Origin: Burkholderia mayonis
GTDB lineage: Bacteria > Pseudomonadota > Gammaproteobacteria > Burkholderiales > Burkholderiaceae
Length of the DNA: 64,000 nt
Direction of reading: 5' to 3'
NCBI RefSeq assembly: GCF_001523745.2
Contig: NZ_CP013386.1
Coordinates: forward strand, 806,001-870,000
Part shown: one piece after another, positions 2,867 to 23,931 of the stretch
Numbering within the stretch: position 1 is the stretch's first letter
Layout: the number at the start of each line of letters is the position of its first letter
Notes under the pieces: model-generated
Seen by the model: only the letters and a program-made list of their open reading frames with translations
Database searches by the model: none
Told to the model about the DNA's origin: nothing
Position numbers and translations under genes: made by a program

Positions 2867-2874
2867 AATCTCAA

Positions 2875-6023: not shown

Positions 6024-6697
6024 TGCCCTAACTCGAGAATATGATGGCTGTAGTGCTCGTATGCTTTGGATACGTCGCCGAAGCGTGTGATTGTACCCTG
6101 GTCAAGAACGGCGGCACTATTACAGTATTTCATAATGAATCCAGCATCATGAGAAACGATGATGAATGCTCGATCTTTGCGTTTTTCGAACAGTTCATAG
6201 ACACATTTCTCATGGAATCTGGCATCGCCGACCGCAATAATTTCATCAATCAAGTAACAATCAAATTCGATGGCGAGCGAAAGTGCGAACGCGAGGCGCG
6301 CTTGCATGCCGCTGGAATATGTCTTGACTGGCTCGCGAAAATATTTGCCAAGCTCTGCAAATTTCTCTACAAATTCACGAATTGATTCGTGATCGATATT
6401 ATAAATTCGAGAGATAAAGCGAAGATTATCGAGACCAGTCAGGCTTCCCTGAAAACCTCCTGCAAAAGCCAAGGGCCAAGATACAGCCATCTTTCGCTGA
6501 ATCAAGCCGCTATCAGGAGATTCCTGGCCGCTGATCAGGCGGACAAGCGTCGATTTGCCGGCTCCGTTTTTCCCGAGTATGCCTACCTTTTCACTGCGTT
6601 CAACAGTTAAACTTATCCCATTGAGCACCGTATGGCTACCGGTCCTCGACTTATATCGCTTCGTAACGTTTCGCAACACGAGCATCTCGATGTCCAT
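6020..6697 (-). CDS. wzt: Capsule ABC transporter ATP-binding protein
   Basis: 225 residues, the usual length for KpsT/BexA-type ATPases that lack the carbohydrate-binding C-terminal domain of O-antigen Wzt. It has Walker A ([15 protein letters not shown]), signature ([14 protein letters not shown]), Walker B ([13 protein letters not shown]) and an H-loop (IIVSHD). It energises translocation of the finished, lipid-linked polysaccharide across the inner membrane together with the permease encoded 3 bp upstream. The ATG at 6697 is used; a second ATG at 6685 would give [11 protein letters not shown] and is also possible. It overlaps the GT9 gene by 4 bp. Confidence 0.92.
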
Positions 6698-7504: not shown

Positions 7505-8687
7505 GGTGCTCGTTGATGCCATGAATCAAGAGCGTCAAAATCCCCCAAATTATCAATGAAATAACCAGAGTGATAATGACATTGGTGAAACGATGCGGTT
7601 CGAGAGAGGCATCTGGAAAGCTTGGGCGCGAAATTCTCTCAAGATAAAGTTGCTTGCGCTGTGCTTCGTTGCGAGCCTGCTCGAGCGTGCTCATGGCGCT
7701 GGCCAGCATCTTGTCTGAAAACTCCTTGTCAAGTTCTAGGCGTCGATATTCGGATGCCTTGCTTGCCAGCGAACGGTCTGACGCTCCGGCGATGCGCGCG
7801 GATTCGGTATTGATGGCTTCAGTGAGCAACTGCGCGCGTTGCCTAAATGCCGGTAGCTGTGGACTGTCTTTTGCGAGTTTTTCCAGTAGGGCAATTTGCG
7901 CCTTGGTAGCAACCAATTCGTCCTGCAGTTTTGCGACTTGCTGGAGAGGGATGCCTGATTGTTTTTCGGGGTCTATAACGCCTTGCTTGTCCCGGTAGTG
8001 CGCCAAGGCTACTGCGGCGGCCTTCGACCTTGCTTCCGCCTTTGCAACTTCTTCGGAAGCGAACCGAATCATGTCGAGGCGAGCACGTTCGTTTAGCTTG
8101 TTGACAAGCGCTTCACTCATCTCAAGTAAGCGTTCATTTAACGCATGAGCGTCTTTGGCCGTGAAGGCACTTGTTTTTAAGGTCAAAATCGAAGAAGCCG
8201 ATTCGACTTGTACGTCGACCATCTTCTGGTAATAGCGATAGAATTTTTCGTAGCTATCGTTTCGGCCGAACGGATCGAAGCGACTCACGATGTCGACAGA
8301 CGATGCAGAGAAGGCGGTTTTGATATGTAGATCTCGATCTGCCGAGATGAGTGCGTCGCGAGAAAGAATGAAGTCCTGGATCGTGTAGGCGTCATCCTGT
8401 GACCGGCTGAAACCTGCCTGGTTTAGAAAAAACCCCAACGGTGATGCGCTTTGGCGGTCAGGGCTGCGAACCAAGAATTTGGCCTCGGAGACATAGATAT
8501 CCGATGCTATTAGGCCGTAATAGATCGTGGAAGCTATCGTTGGAACTACAACTATGATCAGGAGCAGAGCGTTTACTCTACTGATCATGCCAAGAGTATG
8601 TTGCAGTTTGATGAAGCCTGCGCGGGACCGCTTCAGGAAGATCTGATTTTCCAAAGCTCTTTCCGGTTGTAACTGAAGACGCTGCAA
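7497..8687 (-). CDS. wcbD: Capsule export inner-membrane/periplasmic adaptor (KpsE/BexC/CtrB type, PCP-3)
   Basis: 396 residues from a TTG at 8687 (an upstream in-frame TAG bounds the ORF). The topology is typical: one TM near residues 34-55 (ALLLIIVVVPTIASTIYYGL), a long periplasmic part with coiled coil (about 180-345), and a C-terminal TM (TNVIITLVISLIIWGILTLL). The PCP-3 motif SEAKFLVRS and the C-terminal FPDASLEPHRF (proline-rich, before TM2) are present. KpsE-type proteins bridge the ABC transporter to the outer-membrane channel. The true start is uncertain: TTG 8687 or ATG 8588, the latter leaving almost no cytoplasmic tail. It is the first gene of the minus-strand operon, whose promoter should lie in the adjoining divergent region. 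The symbol is tentative. Confidence 0.88.
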   Translation of the reverse strand: MQRLQLQPERALENQIFLKRSRAGFIKLQHTLGMISRVNALLLIIVVVPTIASTIYYGLIASDIYVSEAKFLVRSPDRQSASPLGFFLNQAGFSRSQDDAYTIQDFILSRDALISADRDLHIKTAFSASSVDIVSRFDPFGRNDSYEKFYRYYQKMVDVQVESASSILTLKTSAFTAKDAHALNERLLEMSEALVNKLNERARLDMIRFASEEVAKAEARSKAAAVALAHYRDKQGVIDPEKQSGIPLQQVAKLQDELVATKAQIALLEKLAKDSPQLPAFRQRAQLLTEAINTESARIAGASDRSLASKASEYRRLELDKEFSDKMLASAMSTLEQARNEAQRKQLYLERISRPSFPDASLEPHRFTNVIITLVISLIIWGILTLLIHGINEHHE

Positions 8688-9456: not shown

Positions 9457-10749
9457 ATGAGACGCTCGTTCCTAGTGTTGCAGGGGCCCGCATCGCCATT
9501 TTTTGAGGCGCTATGCACTACGTTGCTTGACCGCCGCCACGTTGTTCGGCGCGTCAACTTTTGTGGTGGCGATTTGGCGTATTCCGGCAAAGAGCCCAAG
9601 TGGAACTACGTTGGGCCGCAAAGTGACCTCGCGCTTTGGTATGGCGATGTGCTGGGCGCTGGGGACTTTAGCGACGTGCTCATGTTCGGCGACTGCCGCG
9701 CGATTCATCGGCCTGCTCATGCCGTTGCGCAGTCGCTTGGTGTTAAGGTGCATGTATTCGAAGAAGGCTATGTGCGACCGGATTGGATTACGCTGGAGCC
9801 ATTTGGCGTCAATGGCCGCTCTATGCTGCCTCTTGATCCGGAGTGGTATAGGGGGCAGCGTGAAACCAATCCTCCGGGGCAGCCAACTGGATATAGTCTT
9901 CAGACTCGAGCATGGCACGACATCCGCTATCGAATGGCTAACGCGTTCCATGCATGGCGTTTCCCGAATTACCAGAGCCATCGCCCATATAATGGCCTCA
10001 TCGAATATGCCGGTCTCACCAATCGTTTTGCCCGGCTCGGCAGGTACCGGGCGGAAGCGCGTCGAGTCACTTCAGCACTCGTCACTGAGCGGCGCCCCTA
10101 CTATCTATTCCCATTGCAACTGGATTCGGATAGTCAGATCATCGAGCATTCGCCGTTCTCTGGAATTCGCGAGGTCATCAGCGAGGTGTTGCATTCGTTT
10201 GCGGATCATGCGTCATCCGATGCGCTGCTTGTGGTCAAAAATCATCCGCTCGATACTGGCCTGATAGGTTTCCGCCACCAGGTCCGATCCCTTGCAGAGC
10301 GACTAGGAGTTGCGGACCGAGTACGTTATATAGAGGCCGGTCACCTGCCGACGTTACTCGAGCATGCACGCGGTGTAGTTGTCGTCAACAGCACGGTCGG
10401 TTTGTCCGCACTCCATCACGATCGACCGCTGATGACACTTGGGACGGCGGTCTATTCGATGCCTGGTATGACCTGGCAGGGAAGTCTGGACAGCTTCTGG
10501 CAACAGGCTGAAGGCCCAGACACGGCGCTGTATCAGGCGTTCATCGACTATGTGATCCGCCATACTCAGATTAACGGTGATTTCTACAGCCGCTCGGGCA
10601 TCGCGATGGCGGTAGCCGGTGCGGTTCGCCGTCTTGAGGCGGCCATGTCTCCGTTTGCTGCCGGACAGACGTCCCTATCCTCCGAGCCAAGCTTTTTGCC
10701 CCAGCAACATATACTGCCTCCTCAATTGAAAGAGGCCGCTCGTGGCTAG
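9457..10749 (+). CDS. wcbO: KpsS-like capsule lipid-linker / beta-Kdo transferase family protein
   Basis: 430 residues of the Capsule_synth (PF05159) family. Key signatures are YLFPLQLDSDSQI (about residue 225), VVKNHPLD (about 260) and VVVVNSTVGLSALHHDRPLM (about 310), matching KpsS/LipB proteins. KpsS and KpsC are retaining beta-Kdo transferases that build the poly-Kdo linker joining group 2 capsules to lyso-phosphatidylglycerol, so this gene probably acts in capsule lipid anchoring. The start at 9457 gives MRRSFLVLQGPASPFF, with a weak ribosome site. It is the first gene of the rightward operon, 24 bp before wcbP. No KpsC homologue is visible in the window; it would be expected nearby, beyond position 1. 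Confidence 0.88.
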   Translation: MRRSFLVLQGPASPFFEALCTTLLDRRHVVRRVNFCGGDLAYSGKEPKWNYVGPQSDLALWYGDVLGAGDFSDVLMFGDCRAIHRPAHAVAQSLGVKVHVFEEGYVRPDWITLEPFGVNGRSMLPLDPEWYRGQRETNPPGQPTGYSLQTRAWHDIRYRMANAFHAWRFPNYQSHRPYNGLIEYAGLTNRFARLGRYRAEARRVTSALVTERRPYYLFPLQLDSDSQIIEHSPFSGIREVISEVLHSFADHASSDALLVVKNHPLDTGLIGFRHQVRSLAERLGVADRVRYIEAGHLPTLLEHARGVVVVNSTVGLSALHHDRPLMTLGTAVYSMPGMTWQGSLDSFWQQAEGPDTALYQAFIDYVIRHTQINGDFYSRSGIAMAVAGAVRRLEAAMSPFAAGQTSLSSEPSFLPQQHILPPQLKEAARG

Positions 10750-10773
10750 TGAACCCGCAGGATACGTCGACCG

Positions 10774-11559
10774 ATGACCGCGCGTTCTTCTCGCTGCATA
10801 GTGATCACCGGCGCCAGCGCGGGGCTCGGCGAAGCGCTCGCCAGGTGTTATGCCGAACGTGGTGTGGTGTTGGGGCTTGTGGGGCGGAACGCGACGCGTC
10901 TCGAAGCCTGCGCGCAGATCTGTCGCGATGCCGGGGCTGAAGTGGTCGCTGCGATCCTCGACGTGCGTGATTCCGAGAAGACGCGGAAGTGGTTATCGCG
11001 CCTCGACCAGTCACATCCAATCGATCTCTTAATCGCGAATGCCGGCGTTGCGAGTACCCTTGCATCGTCTGGCGAATGTGAAGACTTTGCACGAATAAGC
11101 GAAGTCATGGACACGAATTTCTACGGCACGATGCACACGATTTTGCCGGTTCTTGAGCGCATGCGTAGACGTGGGCGTGGCCAAGTCGCACTCGTCAGCT
11201 CGCTCGCCGCGCTGCGCGGCATGGCGATTTCTCCCGCCTATTGCGCGAGCAAGGCAGCGATCAAGGCATATGCCGATTCGGTCCGTCCGTTGCTCGCGCG
11301 CGACGGCGTCCGGCTGTCCGTGATCCTGCCGGGCTTCGTGAAGACCGCGATGAGCGACGTGTTTCCGGGCGACAAGCCGTTTCTGTGGCCCGCCGACAAG
11401 GCGGCCGCCCACATCCGCGCCAAACTCGCGGCCGGACGTGCGGAGATCGCGTTTCCGGGGCTGCTCGCGTTCGGCATGCGTTTGCTGCCGCTGCTGCCCG
11501 CTACGCTCGCGGACGCGATCCTCGGCAGACTGTCGTATCTGCCGCGCGAGGAGCGCTAG
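10774..11559 (+). CDS. wcbP: Short-chain dehydrogenase/reductase
   Basis: 261 residues of a classical SDR: TGASAGLGE nucleotide-binding motif at residues 11-19, NAG (about 89), and the catalytic Ser-Tyr-Lys set (VSSLAAL then SPAYCASKAA). The C-terminal region ends with hydrophobic residues. Neighbours are wcbO (24 bp) and wcbQ (1 bp), so it is co-transcribed. Known wcbP is needed for capsule in the B. pseudomallei group but its substrate is not settled to my knowledge. Given the PKS and the alpha-oxoamine-synthase-like WcbT in the same operon, reduction of a 3-keto long-chain amine (3-ketosphinganine-reductase-like step) is an attractive inference; a nucleotide-sugar reductase role is the alternative. 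Confidence 0.88.
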   Translation: MTARSSRCIVITGASAGLGEALARCYAERGVVLGLVGRNATRLEACAQICRDAGAEVVAAILDVRDSEKTRKWLSRLDQSHPIDLLIANAGVASTLASSGECEDFARISEVMDTNFYGTMHTILPVLERMRRRGRGQVALVSSLAALRGMAISPAYCASKAAIKAYADSVRPLLARDGVRLSVILPGFVKTAMSDVFPGDKPFLWPADKAAAHIRAKLAAGRAEIAFPGLLAFGMRLLPLLPATLADAILGRLSYLPREER

Positions 11560-11560
11560 C

Positions 11561-13096
11561 GTGGGCGGCGGGCTCGCGCTCACCTTCTCGATCGCTGCCG
11601 CGCTGTCGTTCGCCCTCGATGCGCTCGCGATACCGCGCGCGCCGTGGCGCCGGCCGCTGCCGGCCTTCGCACTGCACGTGCTCGCATTCGCGTTCGTCGG
11701 CGGCTGCGTGCTGTTCGTCACTGCGCGCGTGCTGTTCTCGGCATTCGTCGCCGTCGCGCTCGTCGGCCTGATGGCGGTCGTCAGCAACGCGAAGCATGAA
11801 TCGCTGCGCGAGCCGTTCGTGTTCACCGATCTGAGTCTCTTCAGCCAGCTGTTCTCGCATCCGCGCCTGTATCTGCCGTACCTGAGCGCGGGCAAGGTTG
11901 CCGCAATCGCGGTCGGCATCGCGCTGCTCGCGGCCGGCTATCGGGCCGAGACGCCGCTTGCGCCGCGGCCGTTCGCGGCGGCCGCCGCCGCGATCGCCGC
12001 GTGCTTCGTCTGCGGCTGCCTGCTTGCGAAGCGACTGACGCTCACGCTCGACGCGAGCGTCGACCAGCGGCGCAACGGCTTCTTCGCGACGTTCGTCGCG
12101 TATCTGCTCAACGGGCTGCGGCCGGCGACGCTGCGCGCGTTCGAGCGCGCGGCGGCGGCGAGTCCGTTCGCCGACGGCCGGGCCGCCGCGTATCCGGACG
12201 TGATCGTGATCCAGAGCGAATCGTTCTTCGATGCGCGGCGCGCGGTGAGCGGCATCGAGCCTTCGCTCTTCGCGCATTTCGATCGCGCGCGGCGCGAGTC
12301 GATGTTTTACGGCGAGCTTGCAGTGCCTGCGTGGGGCGCCAACACGATGCGCACCGAGTTCGCGATGCTGACGGGGCTCGCGTCAGAGCGCCTCGGCTAT
12401 GCGCGCTTCTATCCTTACGCGTTCCTGCGCCGCGCCTGCGATTCGCTCGCCGGCTGGTTCAGGCGCGGCGGCTACGGGACGGTCGCGATCCATCCGTATT
12501 ACGCGGACTTCTTCGGCCGCGACCGCGTGTTCCCGCTGATGCATTTCGAGCGCTTCCTCGACATTCGGCATTTTGTTCGTGCGCCGCGCGCCGGCCCGTA
12601 CGTGGCCGACGGAGCCGTCGCCGACGCGCTGATCGCCGAGCTCGACGCGCCGCGCGCCAAGCCGCTCTTCGCGTTCGCGATGACGATGGAGAACCACGGC
12701 CCGCTGCATCTGGAGACGGTGGAGCCCGGCGAATCGCGCTCGCGCCATGCATTCGGCGACGGCGCCGAATGGCGCGATTTAACTGTTTACTTGCGTCACG
12801 TCGTAAATGCGGATGCAATGATCGGGCGACTGCTCGAGCATCTGCGCGCTCGACGGCGTGACACGGTCGTGTGCTTTTATGGCGACCATGTCCCGGCGCT
12901 ACCGCATATTTTCGGTAAGCTGGGTGTCGCGCCCGAGCGCAGCGACTACTTTATCTGGCGGAATTTCGGAACCCCGGACGCCTGTCGGCGAGATGCGCGT
13001 GTCGAAGAGCTCGGTTCGATCCTGCTTCGCGCGACCGAAGCGGAAGAGACGGGCAGCCCTGCGACGAATGCATCTGAAAAAACGACACAACGATGA
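11561..13096 (+). CDS. wcbQ: Membrane sulfatase/LTA-synthase-like phosphotransferase
   Basis: 511 residues. The start is a GTG at 11561, one base after the wcbP stop; the reading frame continues further back inside wcbP but that part is an overlap artefact. The N-terminus has about five TM helices (to about residue 160). The periplasmic catalytic domain follows: DVIVIQSESFFDAR (metal-binding Glu/Asp), GANTMRTEFAMLTGL with Thr262 in the nucleophile position of LtaS-like enzymes, ENHGPLH and VVCFYGDHVPALPH (metal ligands). Such enzymes move phosphoglycerol or phosphoethanolamine from a phospholipid to a glycan or lipid. In this operon it may decorate the capsule or its lipid. It overlaps wcbR by ATGA. 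Confidence 0.85.
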   Translation: MGGGLALTFSIAAALSFALDALAIPRAPWRRPLPAFALHVLAFAFVGGCVLFVTARVLFSAFVAVALVGLMAVVSNAKHESLREPFVFTDLSLFSQLFSHPRLYLPYLSAGKVAAIAVGIALLAAGYRAETPLAPRPFAAAAAAIAACFVCGCLLAKRLTLTLDASVDQRRNGFFATFVAYLLNGLRPATLRAFERAAAASPFADGRAAAYPDVIVIQSESFFDARRAVSGIEPSLFAHFDRARRESMFYGELAVPAWGANTMRTEFAMLTGLASERLGYARFYPYAFLRRACDSLAGWFRRGGYGTVAIHPYYADFFGRDRVFPLMHFERFLDIRHFVRAPRAGPYVADGAVADALIAELDAPRAKPLFAFAMTMENHGPLHLETVEPGESRSRHAFGDGAEWRDLTVYLRHVVNADAMIGRLLEHLRARRRDTVVCFYGDHVPALPHIFGKLGVAPERSDYFIWRNFGTPDACRRDARVEELGSILLRATEAEETGSPATNASEKTTQR

Positions 13097-16000
13097 ATGT
13101 AAAGATTGCAATTGTTGGGATGGCGTGTCGCTTTCCCGGTGGCGTGGAGAGTCCGGACGCGTTCTGGAGGCTGCTGTGCGACGAGCGTGACGCGGTCACC
13201 GAGGTGCCTGCGGGGCGATTCGGTACGGACTTCTATCGACATCCGTCGAAGCGCGAACCGGGTAAAAGCTACACGTTTGCCGCAGGCGTCCTGGACAATG
13301 TTGCCGGTTTCGACGCGGCGTTCTTCGGCATTTCGCCGCGCGAGGCGACACAGATGGATCCGCAGCAGCGCCTGCTGCTCGAACTCGCGTGGGAAGCGTT
13401 CGAGGATGCCGGCGTGCGTCCCGCCGACATGCGCGGGCGCAATTGCGGCGTGTACGTCGGCGTCGCGAGCCCGGACTACGGCAATCGCAGCATGGACGAC
13501 CTGAATTCGGTCGATCCGTATTCGGCGACTGGCAATACGCTTAGCATCGCGTCGAATCGCGTGTCCTATTTGTTCGATCTGCGCGGGCCGAGCATGTCGG
13601 TCGACACCGCGTGCTCGTCGTCGCTCGTCGCGTTGCACCAGGCGATCCAGGCGCTGCAATCGGGCGACGCCGAGCTTGCGCTCGCGGGCGGCGTGAATCT
13701 GCTCGCGCATCCGTTCGGCTTCGTCAGTTTCTCGAAGGCGTCGATGCTGTCGCCGCGCGGCCGCTGCCGCGCGTTCGACGCGACGGGCGACGGCTACGTG
13801 CGCGCCGAAGGCGGCGCGTTCGTGCTGCTGAAGCCGCTCGAGCGCGCGCTTGCCGACGGCGACACGATCCACGCGATCATTGCGGGCTCCGGCGTGAATT
13901 CGGACGGCTACTCGCCAGGCGGCATCAGCGTGCCGGGCGCCGCGACGCAGGCCGCGCTGCTGCGCGATGTGTACGGGCGCGCGGGCGTCGATCCACGTTC
14001 GCTCGTCTATCTCGAAGCGCACGGCACCGGCACCGCGGTCGGCGATCCGATCGAGGCGCGCGCACTGATCGAAGTCGCGGGCGCGCAGCGCCCGGCGCAC
14101 GATCCGCTCCTGATCGGCTCGGTGAAGACCAACATCGGCCATCTCGAAACCGCGTCCGGGATGGCGGGCCTCGTCAAGGCCGTGTGCTGCCTCAAGCACC
14201 GCGCGGTTCCGCGCTCGCTGCATTTCGAGACGCCGAATCCCAATATCGATTTCGCGGGCGGGCGGCTGCGCGTCGTCGATCGCTACACGCCGCTCGACGA
14301 ACGCGACGCGCCGCTCACAATCGGCGTCAACTCGTTCGGCTTCGGCGGCACGAATGCGCACGTCGTGCTGATGGAAGCGCCCGCAGCCGCAGCGGACGAA
14401 GGGCCGGGTGACGCGACGAGGCAGAACGCGCCGGATGTCGACGTGGTCCCGCCGCCGCTCGTCTTGACGGCGCGTGCGCCGCAGGCGCTCGCCACGCTGG
14501 CCGCGCGCTATCTGCAGCGCCTCGACGACGGCTGCGCGTGGCACGCGCTCGCCGCCAACGCGGTGCGGCGCAGACAATGGTTCGAAGCGCGCGCGGTCGT
14601 CGCGCCTGCGACCGTTGCAGACGGCCGCGCGGCGCTCGCCGCGCTCGCGCAGCCGGGCGGGGCGTCGGTGCCCGCGTGCGTCGCGCAGGCGCATGCGTCT
14701 GAGCACGAGGCGCGCGTCGCGCTCCTGTTTTCCGGCAACGGCTCGCAGTGGGCGGGGATGGGCCGGGACCTGTACGCGGAAGACGTGGTGTTCCGCGCCG
14801 CGCTCGCCGAAGTCGACGCGCTTTGGTGTGCAGACGGCAGCACGTCGCTCGTCGACGTGATGTGCGCGGGCGCGAGCGCCGAATGGCTCGCCGCGACCGA
14901 GCACGCGCAGCCGCTCCTGTTCGCGATTCAAGTGGGGATCGTGCGCGTGCTCGACGCGCACGGCGTGCGCTTCGACGCGGTCGCCGGCCATAGCGTCGGC
15001 GAGATCGCCGCCGCATGGGCGACGGATGCGCTGTCGCTCGCCGACGCGGTGCGGGTCATCAAGATCCGCAGCCGCGCGCAGGCGCTGACCCGCGGCAGCG
15101 GACGCATGGCCGCGGCGGGCGTCGGCGAGGACGCCGCGCGTGCGCTGATCTCGCAGTTGTCGCTCGCGTCGAGCGTCGAGATCGCCGGCGTGAACAGTCC
15201 GCAGTCGGTGACGCTCGCGGGTTCGCTCGACGGATTGCAGGCGATCGAGGCATCGCTGCGCGCGAACGGTCAGTTCTTCCAGTTGCTCGATCTCGATTAC
15301 GCGTTCCACAGCAAGCAGATGGAGCGGATCGAGCCGGTCGTGCTCGAAAAGCTCGCGGGCGTTGCGCCGCGCGCGGGCACGGGCGGCTTCGTATCGACCG
15401 TCACGGGCGAGCGTTTTCCGGGCGATGCGCTCGGCGCGCGCTACTGGTGGCGCAACATTCGCGAGCCGGTGCGTTTCGGCGATGCGATCGCGCACCTCGC
15501 GGCGGACGGCATTCGTTTGTTCATCGAAGTATCGCCGCATTCGATCCTGCGCACGTACGTGAAGCAGACGCTGACCGCGCTCAAGCTGTCCGGCACGACG
15601 CTGCCGACGCTCAAGCGCCAGCAGGACGGCGCGCAGATGCTGCGCCACGCGATCGCCTCGGCGGTCGCGCACGGCGCGCGGATCGATCCCGACCGCTTCG
15701 CGCCCGACGCGCCGCGCGTCGCGCTGCCGACCTATCCGTGGCAGCGCGAGCGCTACTGGCTCGATCCGAGCCCCGAAGGCTACGGCCTCGTCAATCGCCG
15801 CCGCGCGCATCCGCTCCTGGGCTACCGGCTGCGCGAGCATGCGTTCGCGTGGGAGAACCAGCTCGATCCCGTGCACGTGCCGATGCTCGCCGATCACGTC
15901 GTCGACGGCGGCGTCACGTTTCCCGGCGCGGGCTATGTCGAGATGGCGCTCGCGGCCGCGTGCGCGTTCTTCGGCACGTCGGACTGCGCGCTCGAGAATC

Positions 16001-19000
16001 TCGAGATCCGCGTGCCCGTCGTGTTCCAGGGGCAGCAGGCGAAGCTGTTTCGTTTCACGATCGAGCCGCGCACCGCGTCGTTCAAGATCGAGACGCGCGA
16101 CCGGATGTGCGACGCGCCGTGGATCGAGAACGTCGTCGGCCGGCTGCTCGAGAGCGGCAACACGCTGAATGCGTCGAGCGCCGTGTCGCCCGAGGCGCTC
16201 GCGCATCTCTTCGCCCAGCCCGCGTCGAGCGCCGACGCGCTGTACGACGGCGCGGCCGCGCTCGGCCTCGCATACGGCCCGGCGTTCCGCTGGGTGCGCG
16301 CGCTGAGGATGACGGGCGGCGCGGCGCTCGCCGACGTCGCCGCGCCGCAGGCCTGCGGCGACGCCGCCGAGCTCGCCGCCTACCTGCTGCATCCGGCGCT
16401 GATGGACAGCGGCTTTCATCCGCTCTTCGCGCTGCTCGCGCAAAGCGGCGGCCACGACGCGCGCGCGCCGCACGCGGCATACGTGCCGGTCCAGCTCGGG
16501 CGCATCGATTTCTTGCGCGGCGACGTCGTCGCGCGCGTGCTCGCGCGAATCGAACGGCGCAATCCGCACTCGATCGTCGCGTCGTTCGACTTCCTCGACG
16601 CGAGCGGCGCGATCGTCGCGCGTCTTGCCGCGTGCCGGTTCCGGCGCGTCGACCTCGTCGGCCGCCGGCTGAATCCGCCCGCGCGCTTCGTCTATGCGCT
16701 CGACGCGAAGCCGCTGCCGTCGTCGTTCGACGCGAGCGCGCTGCCCGCGCCCGGGCGGCTCGTCGAGAGCGCGATCGCGACGCTCGCGTCGCGCGAAGAC
16801 TTCGCGCGGCGCACGTGCCACCTGACCGAGATGCTGCCGCTCTTCGACGTGCTCGCAAGCGCGTATGCGCTGCGCGCGCTCGATGCGATCGACGTGTTCC
16901 GGCAGCCCGTGCCGCCTGCGGACGAGCGCGCGGGGCTCGTCGCGCGCCTTGCCGCGATGCTCGTCGAGGACGGGCTCGCGCAATGGGCCGGCACGCGTCT
17001 CGTGCGCAACGATACGGCGTGCGCGGCGATGCCCGCGCTCGACGAACTATGGCGCGGTCTGCTCGCCGAGTCGCCCGCGCACGTCGCGGAGCTGACGCTG
17101 CTCGCGCACTGCGGCGCGGTGCTGCCCGCGGTGCTGCGCGGCGAGACGGCGGCCGCGCAGGCGCTGTCGCCGACGGGCGGCAGTCTCGTCGACCATTTCC
17201 ACGAAGCGTCGCCGACATGGGGCCACGCGCATGCGCTGATCGCAGCCTGCGTAGAGCAGGCGCTCGCCGCCTGGCGCGAACCGCGCCGGCTGCGCGTGCT
17301 CGAGATCGGCGCGCCCGGCCGCGACGTGCTGCAGCCGCTCGGTGTCGCGCCGTCCGCCGCGCGCTGCGACTACACGATCGCAGGCACGCCGCAGCAGCTC
17401 GCCGGCTTCGACGCCGCCGCGCATCCGTCGATGCAGACAGTCGCGTTGCTGACGGGCGAAGGCGCGGCGATCGTCACCGACGACCACACGCCTTACGACA
17501 TCGTGCTGATCGATCGCGCGCTCGCTGCGCAGCACGATCCGCTCGCATTCCTGAGCGTCGTGTTCGAGCGCCTCGCGCCGGGCGGCCTCGCCGTGCTCGC
17601 GGAGACGCGCGGCGGCCGCTTCGCCGACATCGTGTTCGCGCTCGCTGCAAGCGGCGCGAGCGCGTCGCTTGCAGCGCCGCTCGCGCCGGCCGAGATCCAG
17701 TCGCTGCTTTCGCACGCGGGTTTCCGCGATGTCGCGCGCCACCTCGAGCAATCGCTCGATCTCGAAGGCGCGCCGACGTTCGTCGTCGCGCGCAAGCCGG
17801 CCGCGAAGGCGGGCGACGCGCGCGAGGCGCTCGACGGCGGCGTATGGGACAGCCTCGACACCGCCGCGTATGCGGAGCGGTGGCTCGTCGCGACGGGCGG
17901 CGACGGCGACGCGGGCGCGGCGCTCGCCGGCGCGCTCGCGCGCACCGGCTGCTATGCGGAGGCCATGTCGCTGCACCGGATGACCGAGATTGTCGCGGTC
18001 GCGTCGCCCGCGCAGCCGCATCATCTGGTGTTCGTCGCGCCCGATGCGGCGCTCGGCGCCGACGCCGACGGCGCTGCGATGATGCACGCACAGCGGACGG
18101 GCGTCGTCGCGCTCGCACGGCTCGTGCGCGAGCTCGGCGTCGTCGATGCGACGGCGAGCGTGCGGCTGTCTGTCGTCACGCGCGGCAGCGCGCCGTTCGC
18201 GCTCGATGCGCCGCTCGATCCGACGCAGGCGGGCCTCTGGGGGCTCGGCCGCGTGCTCGCGAACGAGCATCCCGAATTGTCGTGCCGGCTGATCGACGTG
18301 CATCCCGATTGCGGCGCCGCGCTCGATGCGCTCGTGCGCGAGCTGCTCGCGCACGACGCGGAAGAAGAGGTGCTCCTCACGCCGCGCGGACGCTTCGTGC
18401 CGCGGATGCTGAGCGCCGCGCAGATCGACGCGCGCGCGGCCGACGCGATCGGCGAGCGGCCGCCCGCGGTGCTCGCGTTCGACGCGCCGGGCTCGCTGCG
18501 CAATCTCGAGTGGTTCCCGCTGCGGGCGGGCGAGCTCGAGCCGGACGAAGTCGAGATCGAGCCCGTGGCGACGGGCCTCAACTTCCGCGACGTGATGTAC
18601 GCAATGGGACTCTTGTCAGACGAGGCGGTCGAGGCGGGCTTCGCCGGCGCGACGATCGGCATGGAGCTCGCGGGGCGCGTCGTGCGCGTCGGCCGCGACG
18701 TCGACGGCTTCGCGGCCGGCGACGCGGTGCTCGGCTTCGCGCCCGCGTCGTTCGCGACGCGCGCGAGGACGCGCGCGGCCGCGATCGCGCACAAGCCGTC
18801 GCGGCTGTCGTTCGAAGAAGCGGCGACGATTCCGACGACGTTCTTCACCGCATACTACGCACTCGCCGAGCTCGCGCGGCTGCGCCGTGGCGAGCGGGTG
18901 CTCGTGCACGGCGCGGCGGGCGGCGTCGGCATCGCGGCGATCCAGCTCGCGCGCCACTTCGGCGCGGAAGTGTTCGCGACGGCGGGCAGCGACGAGAAGC

Positions 19001-20745
19001 GCGAGTTCGTGCGGCTCATCGGCGCCGATCACGTGCTCGATTCGCGCAGCCTGTCGTTCGCGGACGAGATTCGCGCATCGACGGGCGGCGAGGGCGTCGA
19101 CGTCGTGCTCAATTCGCTCGCGGGCGAGGCGATGGTTCGCAGCATCGACACGCTGCGACCATTCGGCCGCTTCCTCGAGCTCGGCAAGCGCGACTTCTAC
19201 GAGAACAGCTACATCGGCCTGCGTCCGTTCCGCAACAACATCAGCTACTTCGGCATCGACGCCGATCAACTGATGGGCGCGCGGCCCGATTTGACCCAGC
19301 GCCTGTTCGGCGACGTGATCGCGCGCTTCGCCGAAGGCGCGCTGCATCCGCTGCCGTATCGCGCGTTCCCGGCCGCGCGCGTCGAGGACGCGTTTCGCTA
19401 CATGCAGCAGGCGCGGCAGATCGGCAAGGTGCTCGTCACGTATCCGGCGGGCACGCCCGCGCCGACGCGCGGCACGGCTTCCACGCACGCCCTCTCGCTG
19501 CGGCTCGATCCGCACGCCGCGTATCTCGTCGTCGGCGGCACGGGCGGTCTCGGCTTCGCGAGCGCGCGCTGGATGGTGTCGCGCGGCGCGCGGCATCTGA
19601 CGCTCGCAAGCCGCGGCGGCGCGCTCGCCGAACCGTTGCGCGAAGAAGTCGGGCGCTGGCGTGACGAATTCGGCGTGCGGACGCACGTCGTCGCGTGCGA
19701 CGTGACCGATGCGGCGGCGCTGACCCGCGCGATCGGCGAGATCGGCGCGCGGGGCGCGCCGTTGAAGGGCGTGCTGCATTCGGCGATGCACATCGACGAC
19801 AGCCTCGTGCGCAATCTCGACGACGAACGCTTCGCCGCGGTGCTCGCACCGAAGGTTGCGGGCGCGTGGAACCTGCATCGCGCGACGCGCGAGTGCGCGC
19901 TCGACTTCTTCATCGTCTATTCGTCGGCGACGACCTATCTCGGCAATCCGGGGCAGGCGAGCTACGTTGCCGCGAACAGCTTCGTCGAGGCGCTCGTCGA
20001 ACAGCGCCGCGCGGCGGGCCTCGCGGGCACGGTCATGGCGTGGGGGCCGCTCGAGGATGTCGGTTTTCTCGCACGCAACGCCGAGACGCGCGAGGCGCTG
20101 CAGGCGCGGATCGGCGGCGTGTCGATCACGTCCGATGAGGCGCTCGCCGCGCTCGAGCGCGTGCTGCTCGCGGGCGACGCGGGCGAGGCCGTCGTGCGGC
20201 TCGACTGGCACGCGGTGTCGCGCGGGATGCCCGCCGCCGGCGCGCGCCGTTATGCGCTCTTGCGCGCGCGCGGCGCGAGCGAGCCCGCGCGCGACGGCGG
20301 CACGCGGCTGCGCGCGCAAGTGGCTGCACTGCCGCGCGACGAGGCGGTCGGCGTCGTCGAAGACAATCTGCGCGCGCAGATCGCGCACATCCTGCATCTG
20401 TCGACCGAGCGGATCGAGCTCGACAAGTCGGTGCTCGAGATGGGCATGGATTCGCTGATGGGGATGGAGCTCGGGATGGCGGTCGAAGAGACGTTCGAGG
20501 TCAAGCTGTCGGTGATGTCGATCGCGGACGGTGCGACCGTGCATTCGCTCGCCGGGCGGATCGCCGACATGATCTCGGGCGCGGCGGCCGGCCCGTCGGG
20601 CTCGGGCGATGGCGACGACGCGCGGCTCGCCGCGATCGCCGCGCAGCATGCGCTCGACTGCGACGCGCGCAAGGTACTGAAAGTCGGGGACGACGGGCCC
20701 GCCGCCGCCGCGGCAGGCGCGCCGAAGACGCTGGTGACCGCATGA
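13093..20745 (+). CDS. wcbR: Highly reducing single-module type I polyketide synthase
   Basis: 2550 residues with domain order KS-AT-DH-(MT-like)-ER-KR-ACP and no thioesterase. KS: about residues 3-430, with Cys174 in VDTACSSSL and the two His motifs EAHGTGT and NIGHLE. AT: about 540-860, GHSVGE with Ser634. DH: about 905-1200, His935 in ADHVVDGGVTFPG. Methyltransferase-like region about 1290-1560 with a degraded glycine motif (LEIGAPGRD). ER: about 1810-2120, HGAAGGVGIAAIQL. KR: about 2140-2400, VGGTGGLGFA. ACP: Ser2454 in GMDSLMG. A full reductive set implies a saturated, fatty-acid-like chain made iteratively. The chain end needs an external release enzyme, for which WcbT is the obvious candidate. 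It overlaps wcbQ and wcbS by 4 bp each. Confidence 0.96.
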   Translation: MNVKIAIVGMACRFPGGVESPDAFWRLLCDERDAVTEVPAGRFGTDFYRHPSKREPGKSYTFAAGVLDNVAGFDAAFFGISPREATQMDPQQRLLLELAWEAFEDAGVRPADMRGRNCGVYVGVASPDYGNRSMDDLNSVDPYSATGNTLSIASNRVSYLFDLRGPSMSVDTACSSSLVALHQAIQALQSGDAELALAGGVNLLAHPFGFVSFSKASMLSPRGRCRAFDATGDGYVRAEGGAFVLLKPLERALADGDTIHAIIAGSGVNSDGYSPGGISVPGAATQAALLRDVYGRAGVDPRSLVYLEAHGTGTAVGDPIEARALIEVAGAQRPAHDPLLIGSVKTNIGHLETASGMAGLVKAVCCLKHRAVPRSLHFETPNPNIDFAGGRLRVVDRYTPLDERDAPLTIGVNSFGFGGTNAHVVLMEAPAAAADEGPGDATRQNAPDVDVVPPPLVLTARAPQALATLAARYLQRLDDGCAWHALAANAVRRRQWFEARAVVAPATVADGRAALAALAQPGGASVPACVAQAHASEHEARVALLFSGNGSQWAGMGRDLYAEDVVFRAALAEVDALWCADGSTSLVDVMCAGASAEWLAATEHAQPLLFAIQVGIVRVLDAHGVRFDAVAGHSVGEIAAAWATDALSLADAVRVIKIRSRAQALTRGSGRMAAAGVGEDAARALISQLSLASSVEIAGVNSPQSVTLAGSLDGLQAIEASLRANGQFFQLLDLDYAFHSKQMERIEPVVLEKLAGVAPRAGTGGFVSTVTGERFPGDALGARYWWRNIREPVRFGDAIAHLAADGIRLFIEVSPHSILRTYVKQTLTALKLSGTTLPTLKRQQDGAQMLRHAIASAVAHGARIDPDRFAPDAPRVALPTYPWQRERYWLDPSPEGYGLVNRRRAHPLLGYRLREHAFAWENQLDPVHVPMLADHVVDGGVTFPGAGYVEMALAAACAFFGTSDCALENLEIRVPVVFQGQQAKLFRFTIEPRTASFKIETRDRMCDAPWIENVVGRLLESGNTLNASSAVSPEALAHLFAQPASSADALYDGAAALGLAYGPAFRWVRALRMTGGAALADVAAPQACGDAAELAAYLLHPALMDSGFHPLFALLAQSGGHDARAPHAAYVPVQLGRIDFLRGDVVARVLARIERRNPHSIVASFDFLDASGAIVARLAACRFRRVDLVGRRLNPPARFVYALDAKPLPSSFDASALPAPGRLVESAIATLASREDFARRTCHLTEMLPLFDVLASAYALRALDAIDVFRQPVPPADERAGLVARLAAMLVEDGLAQWAGTRLVRNDTACAAMPALDELWRGLLAESPAHVAELTLLAHCGAVLPAVLRGETAAAQALSPTGGSLVDHFHEASPTWGHAHALIAACVEQALAAWREPRRLRVLEIGAPGRDVLQPLGVAPSAARCDYTIAGTPQQLAGFDAAAHPSMQTVALLTGEGAAIVTDDHTPYDIVLIDRALAAQHDPLAFLSVVFERLAPGGLAVLAETRGGRFADIVFALAASGASASLAAPLAPAEIQSLLSHAGFRDVARHLEQSLDLEGAPTFVVARKPAAKAGDAREALDGGVWDSLDTAAYAERWLVATGGDGDAGAALAGALARTGCYAEAMSLHRMTEIVAVASPAQPHHLVFVAPDAALGADADGAAMMHAQRTGVVALARLVRELGVVDATASVRLSVVTRGSAPFALDAPLDPTQAGLWGLGRVLANEHPELSCRLIDVHPDCGAALDALVRELLAHDAEEEVLLTPRGRFVPRMLSAAQIDARAADAIGERPPAVLAFDAPGSLRNLEWFPLRAGELEPDEVEIEPVATGLNFRDVMYAMGLLSDEAVEAGFAGATIGMELAGRVVRVGRDVDGFAAGDAVLGFAPASFATRARTRAAAIAHKPSRLSFEEAATIPTTFFTAYYALAELARLRRGERVLVHGAAGGVGIAAIQLARHFGAEVFATAGSDEKREFVRLIGADHVLDSRSLSFADEIRASTGGEGVDVVLNSLAGEAMVRSIDTLRPFGRFLELGKRDFYENSYIGLRPFRNNISYFGIDADQLMGARPDLTQRLFGDVIARFAEGALHPLPYRAFPAARVEDAFRYMQQARQIGKVLVTYPAGTPAPTRGTASTHALSLRLDPHAAYLVVGGTGGLGFASARWMVSRGARHLTLASRGGALAEPLREEVGRWRDEFGVRTHVVACDVTDAAALTRAIGEIGARGAPLKGVLHSAMHIDDSLVRNLDDERFAAVLAPKVAGAWNLHRATRECALDFFIVYSSATTYLGNPGQASYVAANSFVEALVEQRRAAGLAGTVMAWGPLEDVGFLARNAETREALQARIGGVSITSDEALAALERVLLAGDAGEAVVRLDWHAVSRGMPAAGARRYALLRARGASEPARDGGTRLRAQVAALPRDEAVGVVEDNLRAQIAHILHLSTERIELDKSVLEMGMDSLMGMELGMAVEETFEVKLSVMSIADGATVHSLAGRIADMISGAAAGPSGSGDGDDARLAAIAAQHALDCDARKVLKVGDDGPAAAAAGAPKTLVTA

Positions 20746-21656
20746 GCGCGCCGGACGGCTGGCAGGCGCGCGAAGGCACGCTCGCGCGCGAGCTTGCGCT
20801 GTCGGGCCACGGGCTGCACACCGGGCGGCGCGTGCGCGTGCGGATCCTGCCTGCCGACGGACGCGCGTGTGCGCACGGCGTCGTGTTCCGGCGAATGCAG
20901 GACGGCCGCGCGCTCGCGACACTCGCAGCCGACCCCGCGCTGCGCCGCGCGCAGCCGCTTTGCACGATGCTGCGCAACGCGGACGGCGTCGGCGTGCGCA
21001 CGGTCGAGCATTTGCTCGCGTCGCTGCTCGCTTGCGAGATCGATCACGCGACCGTCGAACTCGATGCGGAGGAGGTGCCGATCCTCGATGGCAGCGCGCA
21101 GCCGTGGGTCGACGCGCTGCGCAGATGCGGACGTGCGGCGCTGCCGGCGCCGAAGCGCTTCATTCGCGTGCTGCAGCCCGTCGTCGCAGCGGAAGGCGAC
21201 GGCGCCGCACGCCGTGAAATGCGCATCGAGCCCGCCGCGCACTATGAGCTCAGCGTGCGCAACGACCTGAAAGGCTTCGGCGACATGCACTGGAGCGGCG
21301 TGCTGACGCCCGACGTGTTCGCCGCCGAGATCGCGCCGTCGCGCTCGTACGGGCGCGTCAAATGGGCGATCCCCGCGATCGTCGGCGGCTATCTGCGCGG
21401 CGTGCCGATCCTGCGCGGCGCGCGACCGTCGTGCACGGCGTCGATCGTCGGCTCGCGCGTCGTCGGCGGTTTGCGGCAGCCGGACGAGTTCGTCCGCCAT
21501 CGCGTGCTCGACCTGATCGGCGACCTCGCGCTTGCCGGCGCGCCGCTGCTCGGCCGCGTGTCGGCGTTCAGGCCGAGCCATGAGATGAACTTCCGGCTCG
21601 TCGAGAAACTGCTGTCGACGAAGGGCGCGTGGGAATGGGCCGAGTTCGTCGCGTAA
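20742..21656 (+). CDS. wcbS: LpxC-family deacetylase paralogue of the capsule operon
   Basis: 304 residues of the UDP-3-O-acyl-N-acetylglucosamine deacetylase fold. The zinc and catalytic residues are kept: His90 in TVEHLLASL, His253/Asp257 in HRVLDLIGD, and His280 in RPSHEMN. LpxC removes an N-acetyl group in lipid A synthesis, but this copy sits in a capsule operon directly behind a PKS and differs from housekeeping LpxC elsewhere in sequence, so another N-acyl substrate (amino sugar or lipid amine) is likely. The ATG overlaps the wcbR stop (ATGA). There is a 38-bp gap to wcbT. Confidence 0.88.
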   Translation: MSAPDGWQAREGTLARELALSGHGLHTGRRVRVRILPADGRACAHGVVFRRMQDGRALATLAADPALRRAQPLCTMLRNADGVGVRTVEHLLASLLACEIDHATVELDAEEVPILDGSAQPWVDALRRCGRAALPAPKRFIRVLQPVVAAEGDGAARREMRIEPAAHYELSVRNDLKGFGDMHWSGVLTPDVFAAEIAPSRSYGRVKWAIPAIVGGYLRGVPILRGARPSCTASIVGSRVVGGLRQPDEFVRHRVLDLIGDLALAGAPLLGRVSAFRPSHEMNFRLVEKLLSTKGAWEWAEFVA

Positions 21657-21694
21657 TATGTGGTCTCCATTGACGAAACAGGCGAACGGTTCAG

Positions 21695-23017
21695 ATGGGA
21701 TTGGGTGATCACCTGCGCCAGCAGCTCGCGGCGAAAGCACTGAAGCGGCAACTGGATCGCGTCTCCGACGACGGCGACGCGCGCCGTGCGCCGCCTTCAG
21801 CCACCACGCACGCGACAAGCGATCCGCGAAGCTGGTTCGAGGCGATGCCGCAGTACCAGCAGGTCAGGATCATCCGCGAGATGGGCGAGAAGCTGCGCGT
21901 CGAATCGCCGTTCTTTCGCGTGCACGAGGGCGTCGCCGGCGCGACGACGCACATCGGCGGCCGCGAATACCTGAACTACGCGAACTACAACTACCTGGGC
22001 CTCGCGGGCGACCCCATCGTGTCGGCGCGTGCGAAGGACGCGATCGACCGCTACGGCACGTCCGCGTCCGCGAGCCGGATGGTCGCGGGCGAGCGGCCCG
22101 TGCAGCGCGAGCTCGAGCGCGGCCTCGCGTCGTTCTACGAGACCGACGATTGCGTCGTGTTCGTGAGCGGCCATGCGACGAACGTGACCGTGATCGGCTC
22201 GCTGTTCGGGCCGGGCGACCTCGTCGTGCACGATGCGCTCGCGCACAACAGCATCGTGCAGGGCGCGCAGCTGAGCGGCGCGAAGCGCCTGAGCTTTCCG
22301 CACAACGATTGGCGCGCGCTCGACGCGTTGCTCGCGCGCGTGCGGCGCGAATACCGGCACGTGCTCGTCGCGATCGAAGGGCTCTACAGCATGGACGGCG
22401 ATCTGCCGGACCTCGCGCGTTTCGTCGAGATCAAGCAGCGCTACGGCGCGTTCCTGATGGTCGACGAAGCACATTCGTTCGGCGTGCTAGGCAAAAACGG
22501 CAAGGGCATACGCGAGCACTGCGGTGTGCGTTCCGCGGACGTCGATCTCTGGATGGGCACGCTGAGCAAGGTGCTCGCCGGTTGCGGCGGCTTCATCGCC
22601 GGCTGCCAGCCGCTCATCGATATTCTTCGCCATCTCGCGCCGGGCTTTCTGTATAGCGTCGGGCTGTCGCCCGTGCTCGCGGCCGCGTCGCTCGCCGCGC
22701 TCGAACGCCTGCAGGCCGAGCCGCAGCGGATCGCGACGTTGCGCGAGCGCGGACTGCAGTTCCTCACGCAGGCGCGCGACGCCGGCCTCAATACGGGCAC
22801 GAGCGAAGGCTATGCGGTGGTGCCCGTCATCACGGGCAGTTCGCTGAAGGCCGCGCAATGGGCGAACGCGCTCTTCGACGAAGGCATCAACGTGCAGCCG
22901 ATCTTCTATCCGGCCGTCGAAGAGAAGGCTGCGCGCCTGCGCTTTTTCATCTGTTCGACGCACGAGCCCGGGCAAATCGAGCGCACGATCGCGGCGCTCG
23001 CGCGGCTCGCACGCTGA
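21695..23017 (+). CDS. wcbT: PLP-dependent alpha-oxoamine synthase-like protein (AONS/serine palmitoyltransferase fold)
   Basis: 440 residues. After about 60 extra N-terminal residues the fold-type I core begins: NYANYNYLGLAG, SASRMVAGERPVQRELERGL, VFVSGHATNVTVI, LMVDEAHSFGVLGKNG (PLP-contacting Asp and His) and the Schiff-base Lys292 in GTLSKVLAGCGG. Family members condense an acyl thioester with an amino acid and release CO2, making alpha-amino ketones (serine palmitoyltransferase, KBL, BioF). Known cases use such enzymes to release polyketide chains. In annotated genomes the gene is called an acyltransferase or aminotransferase of capsule I. Its place after the TE-less PKS supports chain release and amination. 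ATG 21695 is preceded by a weak AACGG. Confidence 0.88.
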   Translation: MGLGDHLRQQLAAKALKRQLDRVSDDGDARRAPPSATTHATSDPRSWFEAMPQYQQVRIIREMGEKLRVESPFFRVHEGVAGATTHIGGREYLNYANYNYLGLAGDPIVSARAKDAIDRYGTSASASRMVAGERPVQRELERGLASFYETDDCVVFVSGHATNVTVIGSLFGPGDLVVHDALAHNSIVQGAQLSGAKRLSFPHNDWRALDALLARVRREYRHVLVAIEGLYSMDGDLPDLARFVEIKQRYGAFLMVDEAHSFGVLGKNGKGIREHCGVRSADVDLWMGTLSKVLAGCGGFIAGCQPLIDILRHLAPGFLYSVGLSPVLAAASLAALERLQAEPQRIATLRERGLQFLTQARDAGLNTGTSEGYAVVPVITGSSLKAAQWANALFDEGINVQPIFYPAVEEKAARLRFFICSTHEPGQIERTIAALARLAR

Positions 23018-23024
23018 AGCGCCG

Positions 23025-23756
23025 ATGACGAGGCGGCCTGCCGACGGCGATCGCAGCGATAGCAGCGCGTCGGGCGAAGCCGTGCCGCGCATGTTTTCGT
23101 GGCGTTTTCGCGCGGCCGCCGCGAGCGATGCGCATGCGTGCGCGCCGCTCGTATTCGAATCCGGCGTGAAGGAATTCGGCTACTTCCTCGGCGAGCCGCC
23201 CTCGCGATGCATCGCATTTCTGGCGTTCGCATTTGCATCGAAGTACGGGCGCTTTTCGTGGCGGCGTCATCGCGTCGCGGTCGCCGAGGACGGCGCGGTC
23301 GGCGCCGTTCTCGCCGCGCACGACGGGCGCGCGACCGCCTTCGACGATCTGCACGTCGCGTGGATGCTGCTGCGCTTCTTCGGCCCTGTGCGCACGATCC
23401 GGATGCTGCTGCGCGGGCTCGTGCTCGAAAGCGAGCTGCCCGCGCCGAAGCGCACGCAGACGCTGATCGCGCACTGCGCGACCGACGAGCGCGTACGCGG
23501 CTGCGGCGCATTCAGCGCGCTGTTCGACGATGCGATGCAGGCCGGCACGTTTCGTGCGGAAGCGGGCAGGGATGTCGTGCTCGACGTGCTGACGAGCAAC
23601 GTGCGTGCCCGCGCGCTCTACGAACGCCTCGGCTTCGTCGAGATGCCGCGTTCGCGTCCGCGGTCCGCGCGCCTGCCATGCGAGCTCGCGTCGAATCGGA
23701 TGCGCTTCGGCGGCGTGCCGCGGCAATCCGCGTTGCGTGCGCAGTCGACGCGCTGA
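23025..23756 (+). CDS. GNAT-family acyltransferase following wcbT
   Basis: 243 residues beginning 7 bp after the wcbT stop, so very likely in the same transcript. The GNAT fold is seen at the C-terminal end: LIAHCATDERVRGCGAFSAL (motif A-like, acyl-CoA pyrophosphate loop), FDDAMQAG, then VLTSNVRARALYERLGFVEM (motif B, with the final beta-strand Asn and Tyr typical of GNATs). The first 20 residues may be dispensable, since a second ATG at 23091 (MFSWRF) aligns better with the fold. The substrate is unknown. One idea is N-acylation of the amine made by WcbT, as bacterial ceramide synthases are also GNAT-like; acetylation of an amino sugar is an alternative. Confidence 0.8.
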   Translation: MTRRPADGDRSDSSASGEAVPRMFSWRFRAAAASDAHACAPLVFESGVKEFGYFLGEPPSRCIAFLAFAFASKYGRFSWRRHRVAVAEDGAVGAVLAAHDGRATAFDDLHVAWMLLRFFGPVRTIRMLLRGLVLESELPAPKRTQTLIAHCATDERVRGCGAFSALFDDAMQAGTFRAEAGRDVVLDVLTSNVRARALYERLGFVEMPRSRPRSARLPCELASNRMRFGGVPRQSALRAQSTR

Positions 23757-23931
23757 GCCGGAAAATCGGCGGCGTCCGCGGACGGCGAACGCACGATGCA
23801 GTGTATTCGCCGACGGCAGTCTTCAAGGACAGCCGAACAATCGACACGATCGCGCGATGCCGATGCGCTCGCATCGAAGGCGACGGGTATTGCGTTGTGT
23901 GAACCATCGCGCAAGCGGCGCTGCTCACACG

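Follow-up and report, generated by a model that had tools for sequence, protein, structure and literature searches.

A capsule operon of Burkholderia mayonis with a likely polyketide-to-sphingoid lipid pathway and a proposed role in capsule anchoring

The 64,000-nucleotide stretch of Burkholderia mayonis DNA analysed here (contig NZ_CP013386.1, positions 806,001 to 870,000 of the forward strand; hereafter the window) carries the wcbO-wcbT operon, which is part of a capsule locus of the ATP-binding cassette (ABC) export type, with KpsM, KpsT, KpsD, KpsC and KpsS homologues standing together. Judged from gene content and from comparison with published enzymes, the operon likely encodes a pathway from a polyketide synthase (PKS) to a sphingoid that is dedicated to a branch of ABC-exported capsules. 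With less assurance, wcbO-wcbT is read as the lipid-anchor branch of such a capsule, in which the PKS-made sphingoid would probably be the anchor. The PKS-to-sphingoid route is sound but already published; what is new here is its link to the capsule.

Gene content and the proposed pathway

Seven open reading frames (ORFs) at positions 9457-23756 were borne out by ORF and domain searches, with the domains that an initial annotation of this DNA had given them:

WcbO, 9457..10749, plus strand: KpsS-like transferase with PF05159 (NF050054, 285.8 bits)
WcbP, 10774..11559, plus strand: classical short-chain dehydrogenase/reductase (SDR); candidate 3-ketosphinganine reductase, counterpart of PfSgaC
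WcbQ, 11561..13096, plus strand: membrane protein with PF00884, an LtaS/GacH-type catalytic domain; candidate phosphoglycerol transferase to the sphingoid
WcbR, 13093..20745, plus strand: iterative-type PKS with the order KS-AT-DH-(degraded methyltransferase-like)-ER-KR-acyl carrier protein (ACP); proposed builder of a long-chain acyl-ACP
WcbS, 20742..21656, plus strand: LpxC-fold deacetylase (PRK13187, 563.9 bits); accessory, outside the conserved core
WcbT, 21695..23017, plus strand: alpha-oxoamine synthase (AOS) of the Aminotran_1_2/bioF type with K292; proposed L-serine-dependent release of the PKS chain as 3-ketosphinganine
GNAT-fold transferase, 23025..23756, plus strand: GNAT domain; accessory candidate for N-acylation

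The start of wcbQ is most likely the GTG at 11561, 1 nt past the wcbP stop, rather than 11438. The wcbQ/wcbR and wcbR/wcbS junctions are ATGA overlaps, and the GNAT gene follows wcbT after the 7 nt initially noted.

Domain searches of 13093-20745 returned KS, AT, DH, ER, KR and ACP domains and no thioesterase domain, in keeping with the earlier description of WcbR as a fully reducing single-module PKS that lacks one. The DH-ER interval of WcbR has no Pfam domain and holds a motif (VLEIG...) that resembles a methyltransferase but falls short of the complete glycine-rich signature; an ExG-like motif occurred in this interval in 36 of 70 complete PKS, WcbR included, GxG in 3 and GxGxG in none. 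The AT motifs, GHSVG (70/70) and DYAFHS (69/70), are taken to be of the malonyl type. The ER signature HGAAGGVG was found in 38 of the 70, the remainder being mostly HGGAGGVG.

Lys292 of WcbT, initially identified as the Schiff-base lysine, was aligned with Lys244 of a solved serine palmitoyltransferase (SPT), and residues H184, D257, H260, T289, K292 and R416 were kept in all 35 chosen capsule-clade AOS sequences. Scores against the canonical SPT models (NF047600, 287.5 with a cut-off of 640; NF047599, 282.5 with 500; NF047603, 227.7 with 670) and against the BioF model TIGR00858 (339.2 with 426.45) all fell below the curated cut-offs, and WcbT was rejected on these grounds as a canonical SPT or BioF.

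The best solved match of WcbQ was GacH (5u9z, E=5.6e-13), with the Thr residues of the two proteins aligned, and E220, T262, H379, D442 and H443 were invariant in all eight aligned sequences. These residues are presumed to be the active-site Glu, Thr nucleophile, Asp-His and His of LtaS/GacH-type enzymes, and GacH is a phosphoglycerol transferase that decorates a surface polysaccharide. Because WcbQ is GacH-like with its active site intact, it is the natural candidate for a phosphoglycerol step. The initial annotation had correctly recognised an LtaS-like phosphotransferase here; it gave WcbQ no lipid role and cited no published precedent.

Such a precedent is found in Pseudomonas fluorescens MYb115, in which the PKS/AOS pair PfSgaA/PfSgaB yields C24, C26 and C28 sphinganines, and lipids heavier by 154 Da were assigned, by mass, as phosphoglycerol sphingolipids (PMC12134224). 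PfSgaB has SPT activity with acyl-CoA and L-serine and almost none with Ala or Gly, the SDR PfSgaC is encoded near PfSgaA/PfSgaB, and 6,101 homologous clusters were reported, with Burkholderia the dominant genus (PMC12134224). No phosphoglycerol transferase is named in the sections of that paper covering these lipids, and the strings 'capsul' and 'wcb' never occur in its main text. The PfSgaA/PfSgaB pair, of the same make-up as WcbR and WcbT, argues for the PKS-to-sphingoid route that the initial annotation had put forward.

In the proposed pathway, a saturated long acyl chain would first be built from malonyl units on the ACP of WcbR. WcbT would then carry out a decarboxylative condensation with L-serine, releasing the chain as 3-ketosphinganine, which WcbP would reduce to sphinganine. 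In a fourth step WcbQ would transfer phosphoglycerol from phosphatidylglycerol to a sphinganine hydroxyl, and the resulting sphinganine-phosphoglycerol would be the sphingoid counterpart of the (lyso)phosphatidylglycerol used by canonical KpsS. Finally, WcbO would add 3-deoxy-D-manno-octulosonic acid (Kdo), KpsC would extend the Kdo linker, and the glycan would be built and exported by KpsMTED. Chiefly among the Burkholderia, WcbS and the GNAT protein might trim or acylate the amine or an anchor sugar. The precedent covers the products of the first three steps, the serine specificity of the second and, by mass, a phosphoglycerol sphingolipid; that the window enzymes share this chemistry is inferred, as are the assignment of WcbQ to the fourth step and the whole of the fifth.

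Association with capsule genes and the KpsS branches

Co-occurrence was assessed by Fisher tests in an unbiased sample of 369 genomes drawn evenly across the class. WcbT-type AOS was present in 12 genomes at E<=1e-90, nine of these at >=55% identity; PF05159 in any form was present in 43, and full-length KpsS (E<1e-60) in 16. WcbQ was found in 12 genomes at E<=1e-30 and in nine at E<=1e-80 (the window's own copy scoring 2.5e-90); the other three, weak hits at 30-35% identity with E values between 8e-36 and 5e-48, were left out of the WcbQ count. AOS and WcbQ were shared by eight genomes (8/9 and 8/9, p=1e-14), and AOS and full-length KpsS by seven (7/9 and 7/16, p=2e-9; p=5e-8 with all 12 AOS genomes). 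When counted by family (183 labels), the two associations gave p=5e-11 and p=3e-7, respectively. KpsS or KpsC lay 1.4-11 kb from AOS in six of the seven shared genomes.

A tree of 28 KpsS proteins separated eight canonical sequences, all from AOS-less genomes, from 20 WcbO-type sequences, of which 19 came from AOS genomes and one from genome G314 (support 100/100). In an earlier version, where two Bordetella paralogues fell into neither group, the values were 100/99 and 99/97. Left out of the later tree were L083 (the window copy), L085 (an additional, incomplete PF05159 protein from that genome), L110 (the same locus as L075), the long-branch Bordetella PF05159 paralogues L050 and L064 of the earlier version, pieces shorter than 370 aa (L080, L090 and L128) and the G781 copy, which is split over two stretches. 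L113, L115 and L117 were scored as AOS-linked on the basis of an AOS elsewhere in the same genome. Holding AOS was itself the reason for choosing many of the AOS-linked rows; the rows free of this bias are those from the 16 KpsS genomes of the class draw, every one of which is in the tree. The curated NF050054 cut-off of 600 does not separate the branches, because canonical-branch scores (305-456 in 7 of 8 scanned) also lie under it, as do those of WcbO and of the WcbO branch (264-302, three scanned). The KpsS branch thus tracks the lipid-making genes, as would be expected if the lipid acceptor differs, and the tree and the co-occurrence together point to the link between sphingoid and capsule anchor that had been suggested initially.

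Several observations weigh against a sphingoid anchor made in this way. The residue at the position of SPT Asn52, presumably the serine carboxylate binder, is Tyr in WcbT and in all 35 aligned sequences. LtaS-type domains normally face outward and KpsS works in the cytoplasm, so that a phosphoglycerol lipid made outside would need to be flipped back. The thresholds behind the associations were chosen after the match lists had been viewed. AOS and KpsS lie on separate contigs in G332, and G289 has PKS, AOS and SDR genes without KpsS. G314 has WcbO, WcbP and WcbQ and no PKS-AOS, a relaxed search of it returning only an AOS-fold protein of 32% identity. PF05159 was present at E<=1e-15 in 31 of 43 genomes sampled from those behind the 80 AOS loci and missing in 12; in L047, L073, L074 and L079 it was missing together with any capsule export gene in the stretch examined. 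In MYb115 the phosphoglycerol sphingolipids occur as free lipids, and their level did not rise when sphinganine was overproduced (PMC12134224). Deletion of a capsule region that includes wcbR is reported to have reduced the capsule without abolishing it (PMC7858667), so the anchor may be non-essential, or another lipid may stand in.

In the other eight PF05159-less genomes (L020, L024, L027, L058, L066, L076, L077 and L081), kps export genes begin 12-653 nt after the AOS match, which indicates that PKS-AOS also belongs to exporters without KpsS. At L076, L077, L081, L060, L066 and L058 the PKS-AOS genes are followed directly by kps export genes, and for all of these genomes but that of L060 a search at E<=1e-15 found no PF05159 protein, which suggests a capsule type that has PKS-AOS and lacks KpsS and KpsC.

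These data were also set against the possibility that the capsule keeps a phosphatidylglycerol-Kdo anchor, the PKS-AOS sphingolipid being an independent lipid of the cell surface or a secondary metabolite whose genes co-travel with those of the capsule in one mobile surface-glycolipid locus. The presence of both KpsC and KpsS, the reduced capsule of the wcbR-region deletion, the occurrence of the cluster on plasmids and the action of the P. fluorescens sphinganines and phosphoglycerol sphingolipids on a worm host, as secondary metabolites (PMC12134224), would all suit it. Plain linkage, however, does not predict that KpsS splits by the presence of PKS-AOS, and WcbQ goes with PKS-AOS rather than with canonical KpsS: across whole genomes it was found in one of the nine AOS-less KpsS genomes, G314, which was likewise the only one with WcbP and WcbQ beside KpsS in stretches of 5-19 kb. 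With the eight PF05159-less genomes in which PKS-AOS adjoins kps export genes, this makes a separate lipid unlikely. The plasmid-borne copies of the PKS, lipoteichoic acid synthase-like, AOS and LpxC-like genes were seen on NZ_LR699556.1 (Paraburkholderia dioscoreae) and NC_021295.1 (Caballeronia insecticola), at 75-77% DNA identity.

A somewhat less improbable alternative is that the sphingoid is made and anchors the capsule but is glycosylated directly by WcbO, WcbQ acting later and outside to add phosphoglycerol or a similar group to the exported glycan or to free sphingoid. This would accord with the hydrophobic membrane segments at the N terminus of WcbQ ahead of its LtaS-type domain, and with the role of GacH, its nearest solved relative, in decorating a surface polysaccharide. 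Against it, the P. fluorescens phosphoglycerol sphingolipids are free, as an acceptor of KpsS would be (PMC12134224).

Published phenotypes agree with a capsule role for the operon but speak against the PKS lipid being strictly required. The wcbR gene has been described as involved in capsule fatty acid synthesis and carries a frameshift in a chronic isolate (PMC7858667), and insertions in wcbQ, wcbS and wcbT came up as hits in a lung transposon sequencing screen (PMC4631991). A literature search that most subscription papers fell outside found no paper combining sphingoid terms, capsular polysaccharide and polyketide synthase, and none in which sphingolipid and KpsC occurred together.

Conserved core and accessory genes

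The gene set recurs in many genomes, as the initial annotation had proposed to examine, and chance is excluded as an explanation. The sample of relatives comprised 80 AOS loci, with L003-L045 being close relatives and L046-L082 being 37 distant loci, and a PKS match was found in 79 of the 80. WcbP-like SDR genes near the AOS gene were also seen in distant taxa and in Pseudomonadaceae. The slot after AOS held GNAT at 37 loci, formyltransferases at 10, PF00198-type acyltransferases at 4, export (kps) genes at 12 and other genes at 15, and at 2 loci the contig ended there; types were assigned by Pfam for one formyltransferase and three PF00198 proteins and by similarity for the remainder. GNAT followed AOS in none of the 37 distant loci, and WcbS-like genes were present in 44 of the 80 loci, 42 of these among L003-L045 and 2 among L046-L082. 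GNAT and WcbS, found mainly among close relatives, were rejected as core parts, since they are missing from nearly all distant loci and the post-AOS slot is filled elsewhere by unrelated acyl or formyl transferases, or by none. This variety hints at an interchangeable modification of the amine. The initial interpretation is accordingly kept for the sphingoid route and the anchor link; its N-acyl or ceramide part gains no support here or is unnecessary.

A structure model of the GNAT protein (predicted local distance difference test score 88.4) was used for a fold search, which returned many small-molecule and protein N-acetyltransferases; no substrate could be named from so mixed a set. No ceramide synthase was among the matches listed, which excludes nothing.

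WcbS, whose gene sits between the PKS gene wcbR and the AOS gene wcbT, keeps the His/His/Asp motifs of LpxC in the alignment, as initially noted; these are presumably zinc ligands. It scored above the cut-off of PRK13187 (563.9 against 423) and below that of TIGR00325 (168.2 against 187.25). Another LpxC, encoded at a different place in the genome, scores higher for the family.

The adjacency of wcbS and the GNAT gene to wcbT, together with the Tyr in place of SPT Asn52, could be taken to mean that WcbT couples the PKS chain to a non-serine amino acid or to a sugar precursor bearing an amine. WcbS and GNAT would then produce an acylated amino sugar, giving a diacyl-hexosamine anchor of the kind seen in the Vi antigen, which is attached to diacyl-N-acetylhexosamine (diacyl-HexNAc) (PMC12220298). 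Among loci L046-L082, however, WcbS occurs in 2/37 and GNAT after AOS in 0/37, the catalytic residues of an alpha-oxoamine synthase are kept, and serine specificity is on record for another enzyme of this kind (PMC12134224), all of which renders a hexosamine anchor very improbable beside the sphingoid.

In the AOS tree, the 35 capsule-clade sequences, three from Pseudomonadaceae included, were separated from eight other PKS-AOS enzymes and four reference rows by a branch with 99/91 support; the reference rows are long branches, and the tree supports the clade and not the deeper order. AOS was found in 4 of 298 Pseudomonadaceae genomes, three at 57-58%, the set having been drawn from a centre found by a 16S pattern (1/369 genomes). 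In the three genomes, PKS-AOS lies near KpsC-like, WcbQ, WcbP and WcbO genes. The MYb115 locus tags (SgaB 19800, SDR 19775) are compatible with this gene order. A Pseudomonadaceae ORF directly behind AOS (L135 15170-15907) was for a time read as the post-AOS slot gene and as reproducing the MYb115 locus-tag spacing exactly; it looks spurious, and that reading was dropped.

A second PKS-AOS subfamily (L141, which is G671, L133, L134 and L125), 43-46% identical to WcbT, had no WcbQ or KpsS match in the stretches examined; at L141 it stands beside LolA-like and MMPL exporter genes. From its gene content it is probably another amino-lipid system. In Thiotrichaceae/Cocleimonas loci, an Rv2949c-like chorismate lyase (Pfam run on the L047 copy) lies next to PKS, AOS and formyltransferase genes (L046, 12203-12781 and 508-1878; L047, 11186-11770; L053, 12176-12730 and 13041-13658), with a P450 in L046 and an LRAT-like protein in L053. 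This set possibly makes a hydroxybenzoate-started lipid.

Capsule locus, related systems and implications

The remaining features of the capsule locus in the window were as follows, a KpsC-like protein with two PF05159 matches being encoded directly left of the window:

530..1684, minus strand: GT4-type glycosyltransferase
1703..2908, minus strand: KpsD/Wza-like outer-membrane export protein (PF02563)
2875..3909, minus strand: methyltransferase-like protein
4065..6023, minus strand: PF01075-containing glycosyltransferase (Pfam)
6020..6697, minus strand: KpsT-like ABC ATPase (Pfam)
6701..7522, minus strand: KpsM-like ABC permease (Pfam)
7497..8687, minus strand: KpsE-like protein (without a Pfam match; assigned from its length and its place in the gene order)

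Promoter and terminator scans of 8600-9500 and 23600-24800 found nothing, and PADLOC gave no match for two flanking ORFs and the GNAT protein. Just past the GNAT gene, 24749-27369 encodes a sialidase-like protein with BNR repeats on the minus strand, along with an ORF of 483 aa without a Pfam match. A second polysaccharide locus occupies 30182-37656; it includes a sugar transferase of family PF02397 (30182-31249), an ORF clustering with KpsD (31314-32507) and a further PF05159 match near 36937-37656. The genome is 6.59 Mb in two contigs, and the nearest named WcbT relatives found were from Burkholderia singularis (90%) and Burkholderia sp. TSV86 (89%).

Fungal fumonisin (FUM1/FUM8/FUM13) and sphingofungin biosynthesis likewise releases a PKS chain with an alpha-oxoamine synthase followed by SDR reduction, and FUM1 is taken to have a domain order like that of WcbR and to lack a thioesterase; these products are free fungal toxins, unlinked to capsule genes. 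The canonical bacterial ceramide pathway (SPT, bacterial ceramide synthase and ceramide reductase) shares the condensation of serine with an acyl thioester and the SPT-type fold; it differs in that WcbT falls below three SPT equivalog cut-offs and that the chain would come from a dedicated PKS. The window locus resembles KpsMTED/KpsC/KpsS capsules in its export genes and its KpsC-like and KpsS-like proteins, whereas WcbO belongs to the other KpsS branch and travels with a lipid-making module. Closest in chemistry is PfSgaA/B/C, a single-module iterative PKS and an alpha-oxoamine synthase with an SDR nearby, with Burkholderia the main genus of its homologous clusters, although it is described as yielding a worm-active secondary metabolite with no capsule mentioned in the main text (PMC12134224); its kinship to WcbR/WcbT was judged via Pseudomonadaceae genomes. 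Kinship of FUM13 and SphF to KDSR is stated in the same paper. The canonical ABC-dependent capsule anchor, phosphatidylglycerol with a Kdo linker, is treated as conserved; the Vi antigen (VexE, diacyl-HexNAc) is an ABC-exported capsule with a lipid other than phosphatidylglycerol, and unlike the window locus it lacks KpsS and KpsC (PMC12220298).

A broader reading, for which the chances appear evenly balanced, is that sphinganine-phosphoglycerol made by a PKS, and not a glycerophospholipid, is the foundation of a widespread class of Gram-negative capsules, which spans Beta- and Gammaproteobacteria and includes at least one Desulfobulbus. One form of the class would have KpsC and a KpsS branch of its own (WcbO), the other would be KpsS-less with PKS-AOS inside a kpsDMTE operon, as in Nitrosomonas europaea; WcbQ would be the missing phosphoglycerol transferase and the P. 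fluorescens phosphoglycerol sphingolipids would be anchor precursors. If true, this would assign a function to PKS-AOS clusters that number in the thousands and have until now been known for host-active sphingolipids, would name a candidate enzyme for phosphoglycerol sphingolipid synthesis and would provide a sphingolipid version of the lipid end of ABC-exported capsules.

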